From: Tribonema minus
Taxonomy: Eukaryota; Sar; Xanthophyceae; Tribonematales; Tribonemataceae
NCBI GenBank assembly: GCA_017506865.1
Contig: JAFCMP010000446.1
Span: 62,001 to 126,000, forward strand
Reading direction: 5' to 3'
Length of the DNA: 64,000 nucleotides
Made by a program: the position numbers and the translations under genes. Position 1 is the stretch's first letter. The number at the start of each line of letters is the position of its first letter. Shown piece after piece: positions 19,627-64,000 of this stretch. A model generated the notes under the pieces. The model saw only the letters and a program-made list of their open reading frames with translations, made no database searches and was not told the origin of the DNA.

Positions 19627-22126
19627 CTAGAATGCCAGCTTGGCAAAAAAGTACTTGCTGCCGGAGGCCTTCTTCTCACTCTTGATCTGCCCCTGGTTGA
19701 GGTAGCGCTCCTCAAAGACCTTCTTGACGGCCTTGCGCACCTCCGGCCGCGAGGCCTTGAAGGCGCTCTCCTCGACCACCGTCTTCAGCTCAATGTCCGC
19801 CGTGTAACTGCGGTGCATGGCATGCGATACAGAAAAACGGGCGTCATGAGTGTGCAGTATGACGTGCGTGCATTGGGTGAGGGTAACAGCATGCGGGTTC
19901 ACTGCGATAAGTTCGCTCTCGAGTACATGAATGAATCGATGCTGTTGCATTGAGACGCAAAGCTAAAATTGATGCCTTGAAGGCGCTCTCCTCAACCACC
20001 GTCTTCTCAATGTCCGCCGTGTAACTGTGGTGCATGACACGCGATGCGAGCGCGGGCGTCATGTATGTGCAGTATTAGCGGAGTGCGCGTGCGTGTACTG
20101 AGTCAGGGTAACAGCGTACACGTGAACTGCAGCAAGTCCGTGCTTCAGTACTCGAATAGATGAATACTTCAGATGCAAGTTTTGGAACGATGCGTCCACC
20201 ACTGTTTTGAGCTCCATGTCCGCTGCGTAACTGTCACTGCACGAGTAAGTCGGCCGCAAGCACTTTGTGACGCAGGAGCACACACACACAAATCAGCAGG
20301 ATGTGGAATTGCGGCCGACTGCGAGCATGTGCATGCAAACATGTGCACCATTAGCGTACTTGAATAGTATGATGGTATACATGTGCACAAACGCGTGCGT
20401 ATAGGGCATGGTAAGAGTAGGGCGCGCAGAGTGTGTGCCGTTTTCGGATGCGCATGTGTGCATCGGGGAGAAGGTATGTATGTATCAGAGTACACAAGTG
20501 TACTGCAGCAAGGTACCCTTCTTGTGAGTACAGGGGATAGGGTGAACGTGTGCGCATCAAAAGGGTGCGAGTTCCAACGCCGCCCGTAGCCCAAGCGTTT
20601 GCTGATGCTGCACCTGCATTTGAATGCGAAACGCCGCCACATATAAGCTGATGCTAGTGCAGCCAACCTGACCATACACCTCAGAATATGCAACTTTAAC
20701 ATCTGCAACTTCAGCGCTGCCACAAATGTGGCCTACATGGTGGATTGGAGTCGTGACAGTTCAGCAACTGCAACCTAGCAATGAGTGGTTCTGACTTTGA
20801 GAGGGTTAGGGTTAGTGCACAGACAGCTGCGCCAGGTGTGTCAGCGGCAGCTTGTGCCTGTGCGCATCTGTTGCGCACCGGTGTGACGCCCCCTATGCGT
20901 ACATGTGAAGTACATGTGAAGTTTGTCTGGTGAAATCGTTTGCTGGCAGCAGCAGCGGCAACTGCACCTCGAGCACCACACTTGATACCTGCGTGCCGAC
21001 ATCCGCGTCGCTGCAACATGTTGCAGCATTCGTGGCTTGCCACGCCGGTATCATTACACTAAAAAACAATGTACTTAGTCAGACTGCACTAATGTCCTCC
21101 CGCTCCAGCTGCTCACATGCAGCTGCGATCAGTCGCTCTGCCAAGACACCTGCCGCTGCATACAGCGTGCAGAACAGCACAACCTAGCCATAATGGCATA
21201 TGTACCCCTGCATCCAGTGCAGGACCTGCAGGGCAGCGCAATCCTTTGCCTGCAGTGCCCCCATCTCCCCGTTATTGGCACTGCCTCTTGCTGCACTTTC
21301 AGCAGCGCGCCAAACTGCGCATGTTGGACGGCAGAATGACCCGTCTCAATCACACCAGCGCTACCAGCATTGCACCGCCAGCATCACACCAGAGCCAGCC
21401 CCCCCCTCCCTCCACCACCGCCTCCGCCTGCTCTCCCGCCCTTGCTCTGGACCCAGCAGCAGAGCCACCGTCGCCAGCGCAGCAGCAGCCTCCTTTCTCC
21501 ACCTGATAAACTACCTTCACAGGGGGCAACTGTGCCTGGATTTTGCAGCAGGCAACCAAAGCGGGGTACAAGCATGCCGTGGTTGCAGGCGGTGGTCCTC
21601 ACCGTGTGGGCATGAGGTGGTTGACGTTGACGAACTTGACGAATGGCTTGCACTTGGAGCGCTTGGCCACCTTCACCTTGGACATAGACTTGGTGACCTT
21701 GCGAGGGTACCGGTCAATGCCCGCCACCAGTGCGTGCGTGAACTTGCGGTCGGCTGACCCGCTGTCGTAGGCCTTTACTACGATTGCCTTGCGGCCGGCG
21801 TAGCGGCCGGCCAGCATGATGACAACCTTGCCCGCCTTGATGCTGCAGAAAAACAACACAAACCAAAAGCACAGCTGTTGGTGATCGGCCTGCCTGAAGT
21901 AGTGCTGCAGCATCGATTATTGCAGAAGGCTATAATTGATTGTGTACTTCTTAAAAACAAGGACTGCTCCATCGCCGTGCTAGCATTTAGAGCAAACACT
22001 AGCACCACTGCGCAGGCCTCAAACTAGCTGGCAATTGCCGGAGCACCACCAATTGAATGCAGACCATCGTAGTGCGACAATGAGCTACGAGGCAAGAGCA
22101 ACTCTGCGATTCACTTACATGCCCAT
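19627..22126 (-). CDS. RPL27: 60S ribosomal protein eL27
   Basis: Exons 22119..22126, 21603..21842 and 19627..19807 (minus) give 142 residues, in the usual range for eL27. The first exon encodes only MG plus two bases of the next codon (start ATGGGCAT|gtaagt). The second carries [20 protein letters not shown], then [20 protein letters not shown] and [13 protein letters not shown]. The third carries [17 protein letters not shown], then [12 protein letters not shown] and the hallmark C terminus [13 protein letters not shown] is split CG|T across the 1.8-kb intron 2. eL27 is a structural protein of the large cytosolic ribosomal subunit. Intron 2 holds two degenerate copies of the 5' part of exon 3 with its acceptor. 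It is divergent from CNX1 with only 149 bp between start codons. Confidence 0.93.
19974..20235 (-). repeat. exon-edge echoes of RPL27 exon 3
   Basis: Copy A (about 19974-20073) repeats the acceptor and first ~55 bases of exon 3, offset about 220 bp from the original. It keeps the cag acceptor and loses one codon. Copy B (about 20192-20235) is more diverged. Flanking intron sequence is repeated with them, so the units are tandem duplications across the splice junction. Confidence 0.8.
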
Positions 22127-22275
22127 GGTCGCACTTCCCTCCTCTGCTGCGTGGGTATCGGGAGCGCGGCCAAGAAAAAAAATTAGCTGAGCATCATCGG
22201 CACAAGTTGAACTTTTTAGTTGAACTTTGTAATGAACTGATCTAAAAGTAGTGGAAGTCGTATACCTTGTGCATC
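22127..22275. promoter_or_regulatory. divergent RPL27/CNX1 promoter region
   Basis: 149 bp between the eL27 and CNX1 start codons. It contains an A-rich run and a near-duplicate GTTGAACTTT at about 22206 and 22220. No TATA box is evident. Confidence 0.45.
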
Positions 22276-63900: not shown

Positions 63901-64000
63901 TCCTCCTCTGCCTCCTTGAACAGCGCTCTGATCTTCTCTTCGCTGCCGCCCACGTACTTGTCCAGGACCTCCGGGCCATTGACGATCTTGGGCTCGCGCG
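57938..64000 (-). CDS. NSF: N-ethylmaleimide-sensitive factor (vesicle-fusion AAA ATPase), 3' part
   Basis: Exons on the minus strand, all in phase: 63708 to beyond the window edge, 63275..63361, 62195..62413, 61771..61844, 60910..61117, 59820..59956, 58716..58872, 57938..58138 (TGA at 57938). The D1 ATPase shows [14 protein letters not shown], Walker [33 protein letters not shown], plant-type [20 protein letters not shown], then [17 protein letters not shown] linker carries [17 protein letters not shown]2 shows the P loop [39 protein letters not shown] and [21 protein letters not shown] disassembles SNARE complexes with alpha-SNAP on secretory membranes. The N-terminal domain and the D1 P loop lie outside the window. 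Introns hold copies of neighbouring exon edges on most sides. Confidence 0.93.
58148..58164 (+). repeat. poly-G tract
   Basis: A run of about 14 G in the last NSF intron, beside the acceptor of the final exon. Confidence 0.7.
58590..58626 (+). mobile_element. LINE 3'-tail-like hairpin in an NSF intron
   Basis: GATGGGCTTTTTCGCCCCTCGAGTGGAATTC resembles the LINE 3' terminus (GGGCTTTTTCGCGCCCTGAGCGAGAATT). The sequence upstream (CTACAGCAATCGAATGC) also resembles the inverted fragment at 13050. Probably a decayed 3' fragment. Confidence 0.45.
59341..59648 (-). repeat. tandem echoes of the NSF exon ending at 59820
   Basis: Two upstream-coordinate copies (about 59341-59363 and 59590-59648) of the exon end plus donor (CGCTTCAG|gta). 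Each carries about 200 bp of the following intron (TGTTCTTGCAATCGTCTCTA), so there are three tandem units of about 235 bp including the real one. Confidence 0.85.
60044..60088 (-). repeat. echo of the NSF exon starting at 59956
   Basis: Repeats GGGTTCTCCGAGGGCAGCAA and GTGCGCGCACATCAGC of the exon start about 110 bp upstream in gene direction. The acceptor position reads ccagttt, so it is no longer a good site. Confidence 0.85.
60691..60830 (-). repeat. echoes of the NSF exon ending at 60910
   Basis: About 60769-60830 repeats the exon end (reads [12 protein letters not shown]) with an intact gtgagc donor. A second, partial copy (60691-60745) keeps only the sequence further inside the exon and the TACTTGAAGTATG intron word. 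Confidence 0.85.
61160..61235 (-). repeat. echo of the NSF exon starting at 61117, with G tract
   Basis: GCCGTAGTGCACAATGCCGTTTCTG repeats the exon start (plus-strand reading). The acceptor is lost. A long G-rich run (about 61197-61229) and TACATCAGCATGTATGT parallel the sequence beside the real acceptor. Confidence 0.8.
62095..62160 (-). repeat. diverged echo of the NSF exon ending at 62195
   Basis: Reads [19 protein letters not shown], parallel to [19 protein letters not shown] of the real exon, in the following intron. Clearly related but diverged. Confidence 0.7.
62520..62574 (-). repeat. echo of the NSF exon starting at 62413
   Basis: Nearly identical to the acceptor and first 50 bases of the exon (cag|ATCATCACCATCCACATGAG), about 160 bp upstream in gene direction. 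The acceptor is intact. Confidence 0.88.
62984..63018 (+). repeat. interstitial telomere-like repeat
   Basis: Five TTAGGG-type units, one of them TTTAGGG, in an NSF intron. Confidence 0.8.
63549..63632 (-). repeat. echo of the NSF exon ending at 63708
   Basis: About 78 bases of the exon end are repeated about 160 bp downstream in gene direction, with an open frame ([20 protein letters not shown]) and an intact AGAAAG|gt donor. Confidence 0.88.

Follow-up and report, generated by a model that had tools for sequence, protein, structure and literature searches.

Tandem copies of splice junctions in introns of Tribonema minus, with a probable origin in ordinary duplication followed by splicing

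Introduction

In the RdRp gene of potato, a tandem duplication across one intron-exon boundary has been described (Ma et al. 2016, PMC4974935), the copies of which were confirmed by reads and by their divergence. Here we report a recurrent arrangement of this type in a 64,000-nucleotide stretch of Tribonema minus DNA (the window: positions 62001-126000 of contig JAFCMP010000446.1, or C446, in a genome of 158.18 Mb and 554 contigs), in which introns of RPL27, CNX1, POLE2, and NSF contain partial copies, termed echoes below, of the exon edges that adjoin them. As in the potato gene, the duplicated unit crosses the exon-intron boundary and the copies are adjacent and head to tail (PMC4974935). 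Unlike the potato case, which concerns one gene and a new intron formed via a cryptic donor, the copies here fall within existing introns, affect many genes, and accompany longer introns; as modelled, the genes appear to require no new intron.

Rogers-type AGGT intron gain by exonic tandem duplication, e.g., that proposed for novel introns of Drosophila (PMC2891723), is alike in that a tandem duplication occurs and splicing hides the insertion. In the AGGT model, a single duplication unit makes up the whole of the new intron, so that the period is as long as the intron and copies lie at both ends. In contrast, echo periods fall well short of the intron lengths, and each copy stays near its own exon: the period equals the intron length in 0 of 32 curated echoes (e.g., 155 bp in an intron of 346 bp, and 217 bp in one of 1795 bp), the curated set being the window genes plus three further curated loci, with echo copies taken at a score of at least 33.

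As regards the duplications themselves, break repair with protruding ends can generate a direct tandem duplication of the stretch between two nicks, and repeated rounds can yield several copies (PMC5730883), an outcome that the echoes resemble. A polymerase theta variant of such repair leaves occasional templated inserts (PMC5730883), and small tandem duplications from break repair are attributed to Schiml et al. 2016, as cited in PMC5730883. That work demonstrates the process with engineered 46-nt overhangs, whereas the units here are larger and their natural cause is one that we infer.

Among algae, the chlorarachniophyte Amorphochlora has longer and more numerous introns in ribosomal-protein genes, rpl27 being one of those compared (PMC12730881), and is comparable to T. 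minus as an intron-rich alga with lengthened introns. For its gained introns, the text available from that report gives neither junction copies nor conserved sequences. Its plastid is of green-algal origin (PMC12730881), whereas the light-harvesting complexes (LHCs) of the present genome match chlorophyll-c type chains. Light-harvesting genes are numerous in T. minus, and their best solved relatives are of the chlorophyll-c type.

A single junction-crossing tandem duplication is thus known from potato (PMC4974935), and its recurrence genome-wide together with intron lengthening may be new: no report of repeated, diverged, genome-wide junction copies with longer introns was found in full-text literature searches, which is weak evidence of novelty. 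Intron lengthening is hard to document because its traces decay fast. With one end of the unit pinned to a conserved exon, old events stay readable, so that the genome may hold a dated record of intron growth. The pattern also prompts one to ask how splicing copes with a number of decoy junctions close by, and if duplications do favour junctions.

Echoes at the exon edges of the window genes

At each edge, the outermost 50 bp of exon were aligned to the adjoining intron, and the score was compared with those from 200 dinucleotide shuffles; after exclusion of the RPL27 exon 1 edge for shortness (8 bp), 55 edges from five window genes were available. An intron copy of the exon edge was present at 15/55 edges at P<=0.005 (16/55 at P<=0.01 and 19/55 at P<=0.05). 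The same query aligned to the intron on the wrong side gave 0/40 at P<=0.005, mid-exon queries gave 0/35 (with 1 at 0.01 and 2 at 0.05), and the reverse-complemented intron gave 1/55. The count of at least 16 echoed exon ends in RPL27, CNX1, POLE2, and NSF made in the initial annotation was about right, as was the orientation described there, i.e., 3' ends copied downstream and 5' starts copied upstream. That SDH4 and ARL1 would be free of exon echoes also agrees with the shuffle test at the two SDH4 edges (0/2) and with the scores of 18 and 16 at two approximate ARL1 edges, which are within the background range. A further claim, that a copy always contains an exon edge, does not hold, since intron-only tandem duplications occur in CNX1, POLE2, and an ARL1-like gene (listed below).

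These results rest on rebuilt gene models for RPL27, CNX1, POLE2, NSF, and two SDH4 exons, in which a few edges were set by hand. Pfam supports the identities of RPL27, CNX1 (MoeA and MoCF domains), POLE2, and AAA/NSF; the name SDH4 was taken over from the initial annotation, and this gene contributes just its two splice edges. The model of CNX1 exon 7 requires a GC donor at 26675, the intron after 26674 apparently beginning with GC. The NSF model, in which the echoes are skipped, is collinear with NSF of solved structure; the alignment covers residues 1-450 of 457, and no gap in it exceeds 3 residues. The echoes and the exons to which they belong are as follows.

19627..19807, minus strand: last exon of RPL27, the 5' edge of which (19807) is echoed upstream
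19978..20024, minus strand: echo 1 (exon part) of the RPL27 exon 3 5' edge; AG kept, intron part aligns over ~119 bp
20195..20230, minus strand: echo 2, older, of the RPL27 exon 3 5' edge; 81% identity
26256..26531, plus strand: tandem units that lie upstream of CNX1 exon 7 (26532-26674), with the best exon echo at 26439-26478
27481..27514, plus strand: echo of the CNX1 exon 8 (27619-27773) 5' edge; AG kept
28552..28735, plus strand: two echoes of the CNX1 exon 9 (28144-28479) 3' edge, their junctions being at 28609 and 28735
29170..29289, plus strand: echo of the CNX1 exon 10 (29431-29676) 5' edge, intron part included
41953..42097, plus strand: two 127-bp units from the POLE2 exon 2 (41629-41844) 3' edge; junctions at 41971 and 42097, GT kept
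42318..42347, plus strand: older echo of the POLE2 exon 2 3' edge; 78% identity, GT lost
42837..42858, plus strand: echo of the POLE2 exon 3 (42953-43120) 5' edge
44468..44546, plus strand: old echo of the POLE2 exon 5 (44657-44884) 5' edge; 71% identity, P=0.00995
45026..45274, plus strand: echoes of the POLE2 exon 5 3' edge; junctions at 45068, 45182 (weak), and 45274
45933..46165, plus strand: echoes of the POLE2 exon 6 (45711-45862) 3' edge; junctions at 45982 and 46165
59596..59642, minus strand: echo of the NSF exon 6 (59820-59956) 3' edge; GT kept, the unit as a whole spanning 59437-59642
60044..60082, minus strand: echo of the NSF exon 6 5' edge; AG kept
60775..60832, minus strand: echo of the NSF exon 5 (60910-61117) 3' edge; GT kept
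61161..61182, minus strand: echo of the NSF exon 5 5' edge; AG kept, at a period of 65
62519..62570, minus strand: echo of the NSF exon 3 (62195-62413) 5' edge; AG kept
63553..63631, minus strand: echo of the NSF exon 1 (63708 to the window end) 3' edge; GT kept

An old echo suspected at 62094-62145, from the 3' end of NSF exon 3, found no support, the best match of that edge scoring 14 (P=0.95).

Structure and divergence of the copies

In junction-anchored alignments, an echo unit comprises 19-87 bp of exon edge plus the splice site, mostly together with some neighbouring intron, and the units are arranged head to tail. From the original to the nearest copy, the distance is 65-224 bp, and there are 1-3 copies per window edge; the initial annotation had counted one to five per edge, each with some 20-100 bp of exon. 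With the exons masked before the search, the copies in 13 edge families still match one another through their intron parts. At POLE2 exons 3, 5 (5' edge), and 6, the intron beside the copied edge aligns weakly.

The aligned parts of the copies in the window are 66-96% identical, contain indels, and are of differing ages. Identity in the RPL27 unit is 96% for the exon part and 75% for the ~119 bp of aligned intron. Across the 32 curated echoes, exon parts diverge by 8.2% (100/1215) and intron parts by 20.0% (314/1567) under alignment scoring that differed between the two; with equal scoring at 13 edges, the values are 5.9% and 14.2%. A less diverged exon part would be expected if one of the exon copies is frozen. 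Among the same 32 echoes, GT is kept in 15/22 and AG in 9/10 (9/11 by a recount of the window junction alignments), in keeping with the earlier remark that many copies hold these dinucleotides. Mean splice-site scores fall from original to echo, from 6.7 to 4.2 for donors and from 5.6 to 2.1 for acceptors, and echo periods modulo 3 (11/13/8) show no bias to multiples of three. This divergence and splice-site decay are roughly what a discarded copy should show.

Recurrence across the genome and intron length

The echo pattern is genome-wide. Exons were predicted de novo in 21 random 10-kb loci, and at an echo cut-off score of at least 36 an echo was present on the expected side at 17/198 predicted edges, vs 0/185 on the wrong side and 3/176 for mid-exon queries. 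These random-locus counts carry error, given that 51/65 of the edges called by the tuned gene finder within curated spans (90 true edges) were correct. The untuned gene finder over-called tiny exons and several echoes were called as exons, so gene finders may be misled by echoes more generally. By eye, partial-exon matches sharing an edge were visible at 3 places in the CCT profile-search listing (C51, C5, and C135) and at 4 in that for kinesin (C511, C246, C479, and C168), all 7/7 in the expected orientation and with edges within a few positions of one another. The proteasome and HSP70 profile listings gave no clear shared-edge case by eye, where short echoes would escape the profile. In the HSP70 gene of locus L030, repeat families occur at 5/8 internal edges.

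Introns that bear an echo are about twice as long as the rest, the median being 946 bp for the former (n=18) and 475 bp for the latter (n=27), with P=1.1e-5. In the L030 HSP70 gene, the introns with echoes measure 1726, 793, and 957 bp, and those at the same positions in two HSP70 paralogues measure 499/537, 450/323, and 330/319 bp; no echo was detected at any of 20 edges tested in these paralogues.

The near-identical HSP70-type paralogues at L033 and L034 (the pair C179/C90) were guessed to differ by a 124-bp echo; the actual difference is a 29-bp intron-only insertion, which by eye consists of ~19 bp duplicated plus ~10 bp of filler.

A probable origin in duplication, splicing, and selection

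The best explanation, and to our minds a probable one, is that the echoes stem from ordinary short tandem duplications, those spanning a junction having survived since splicing removes the extra copy, with the introns lengthened as a result. Short tandem duplications (mostly ~60-250 bp here) would arise across genes, likely from staggered breaks or paired nicks that are filled in and then re-joined. Those within coding exons or of whole exons would mostly be purged by selection. A duplication running from exon to intron, or the reverse, would leave one intact junction, and the extra partial exon and splice site would become intronic. The copy would then decay almost neutrally, with the exon side doing so more slowly; arrays could re-amplify, and the net effect would be intron growth. 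Because a duplication across a 3' edge must add its copy downstream and one across a 5' edge must add it upstream, the observed orientation would follow from splicing and selection, as would the near-absence of mid-exon copies, since duplications inside an exon or of a whole exon damage the protein.

Local tandem duplication, one of several ideas raised in the initial annotation, fits the head-to-tail units, the ends of which are visible in near-identical cases. Two of these appear young: at L028, two copies of ~111 bp, 98% identical and reaching 12 bp into the next exon, make up an intron predicted at 213 bp; at L032, a copy of 97.7% identity lies directly against the exon edge, and the junction holds 8 bp of filler. 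Filler at unit junctions was read by eye in a handful of cases, i.e., at L032, at L028 (1 bp), and at L034. Repair of breaks with protruding ends may be the cause of the duplications in this genome.

Edge excess and alternative explanations

Several observations weigh against an origin in ordinary duplications, namely an excess of repeat families at exon edges, a density of such families biased to introns, a long intron that bears no echo, and a low nonsynonymous divergence of curated echoes. (i) In the curated introns, 18/26 local repeat families cover an edge, vs 8.7 expected by random placement in the same introns (P=1.5e-4). (ii) Since conserved exons aid detection, the search was repeated with exons masked, and 13/20 families were still at an edge where 36% were expected (P=0.007); the 13/20 were classified by hand, and two of the 13 (POLE2 44940 and 45910) start 55 and 47 bp off and were counted by their unmasked family. 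(iii) Ancestral introns of echo-free length predict only 9.3/26 edge families (P=3.7e-4). (iv) At other loci, 13/24 families are at edges vs 6.8 expected (P=0.004), two rows with a whole exon in the copy having been removed from 26. All of these P values treat families as independent. (v) Family density is 48 in 79 kb of introns (6.05/10 kb) vs 30 in 144 kb of other non-coding DNA (2.08/10 kb), an intron bias that plain random duplication would not lead one to expect, although satellite DNA, introns that were missed, and errors of the gene finder blur the contrast. (vi) The remaining L030 HSP70 intron, without a detectable echo, is 786 bp long vs 204/198 bp in the paralogues; echoes are therefore not the sole source of intron growth. 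(vii) The ratio of nonsynonymous to synonymous differences per site (pN/pS) in the curated echoes is 0.18 (pN 0.036, pS 0.198; 21/54 changes nonsynonymous), which is lower than a free copy should show, as obtained from 20/22 echo edges, the two of L032 being left out with no frame assigned.

The remaining 8/26 families in the curated introns cover no edge by the strict rule used for this count; on a loose reading, 3 of the 8 (POLE2 45811, NSF 62362, and L032 3151) come within 5 bp of one. Duplications that ignore edges, which the initial annotation had named as evidence against its proposal, are thus present, yet they are the smaller share. The BLAST repeat screen behind the family counts is apparently blind to periods below ~60 bp (a 58-bp ARL1 array was missed); the short-period arrays detected by Tandem Repeats Finder in these genes lie within introns or within exons, none across an edge, so that their omission by BLAST favours edges. 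Intron-only duplications in the window are the following.

29807..29945, plus strand: CNX1 intron-only tandem duplication, 71-bp unit, no exon edge (counter-example)
30783..31131, plus strand: CNX1 intron-only repeats, 182-bp and 31/62-bp units (counter-example)
40868..40960, plus strand: POLE2 intron 1, intron-only 47-bp tandem duplication (counter-example)
16709..16824: ARL1-like gene, intron-only tandem duplication

Overall, edges are ~2-fold over-represented relative to random placement, a modest excess that is explained only in part. It may reflect a real bias, a longer short-intron history than that modelled, or re-amplified arrays whose exon end does not decay.

A real bias is the premise of the foremost alternative, in which co-transcriptional events near edges (polymerase pausing, R-loops, or nicks) raise the rate of duplication there and introns grow from their ends. 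We regard this as possible but considerably less likely than ordinary duplication, and would extend the same tentative standing to its broader form, wherein exon-intron junctions are the preferred target of some duplicating process coupled to transcription or splicing, which has lengthened introns across the lineage by copying their own junctions. The persistence of the ~2-fold excess after exon masking speaks for such targeting, as do the greater density of repeat families in introns than in other non-coding DNA and the presence of a local copy at 22/89 edges vs 169/1878 random intron positions (57/1328 outside edge families). Against it, intron-only duplications exist (the 8/26 families, the short-period ones, and the 29-bp paralogue difference), and selection and conservation account for part of the edge bias. 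Neither the orientation nor the lack of mid-exon copies calls for the junction-targeting mechanism contemplated in the initial annotation, which retains the edge enrichment in its support.

The echoes might instead be functional alternative exon ends or splice decoys maintained by selection, which we consider improbable. Beyond the low pN/pS, the curated echoes contain no stop codons, their third-position excess is 3.1-fold (confidence interval 1.8-5.3), and many keep AG or GT. In the random loci, however, pN/pS is 0.41 (33/64 nonsynonymous, with one stop in 220 codons), which is compatible with a free copy (P=0.24), and neither the decay of splice-site scores nor periods unbiased to multiples of three would be expected of selected exon ends. 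Constraint on the coding parts of the echoes is not established. Splicing at an echo would moreover insert sequence into conserved proteins, e.g., NSF. Since use of the non-echo sites gives a predicted NSF that is collinear with the known protein, splicing seems to take place at the real sites.

We find three further proposals very hard to credit. RNA-templated repair or reverse splicing could bring exon ends into introns and would suit copies located at splice junctions; most copies are nonetheless tandem and include adjoining unspliced intron, and the matching of intron parts in the 13 exon-masked families disfavours the spliced-RNA repair suggested in the initial annotation, although at a few short echoes the intron aligns weakly. 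A mobile element bringing splice sites, whether an introner or of another kind, would find some support in the short dispersed elements of the genome, one of which lies inside the POLE2 unit, but that piece amounts to ~55 bp of the 127-bp unit, echoes match their own exon, and a 389-bp echo region of NSF has no match in the genome other than itself; near-identical introns at many genes, the mark of introners, were absent from searches with two echo regions (NSF and POLE2). Assembly stutter is rendered unlikely in the extreme by the clear divergence of the copies, with their indels and different ages, and by the same kind of pattern on many contigs.

Other repeats and features

The dispersed element found in POLE2 is ~55-75 bp long with the core TAGAGCTCTACGATCTTTTGATTCGTTTC and occurs in the window at 41879-41936, 42006-42062, and 46963-47018 (minus strand). 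The core has 187 exact matches in the genome (96 on the plus and 91 on the minus strand), vs 0 for a reversed control; a looser search yielded 1631 candidates for the element, 40 of which were scored. Between the two POLE2 copies, ~45 bp of the element are identical and the flanks differ. Rfam at gathering thresholds gave no match in the window.

An inverted repeat of ~397 bp at 82% identity (48989-49384 and 50880-51242) flanks 1.5 kb and carries GGCGCAACT-like motifs; the structure as a whole (48989-51242) looks like a non-autonomous mobile element. A dispersed repeat of ~160 bp is present in three copies (6546-6701, 12094-12249, and 13001-13168) at 86-87% identity, the third inverted. Short interstitial TTAGGG/CCCTAA arrays are numerous throughout the window (e.g., at 46512-46537 and 62983-63016), amounting to 53 hexamers in 64 kb; both orientations occur, and several arrays are intronic.

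At 38741-39743, an array of 81-bp coding repeats translates into 27-residue repeats with a GCPW motif, which are probably ankyrin-like. The EsV-1-7 domain family is very large in this genome, with ~550 loose candidates, 150 of them scored (on C1, C4, C70, C90, C223, C549, and others). Its size and the LHC matches together point to an ochrophyte-like alga with chlorophyll c. In CNX1 (22276-31413), MoeA-type domains come first, a second MoCF (MogA-type) stretch lies near the end, and a His-rich linker stands between them.

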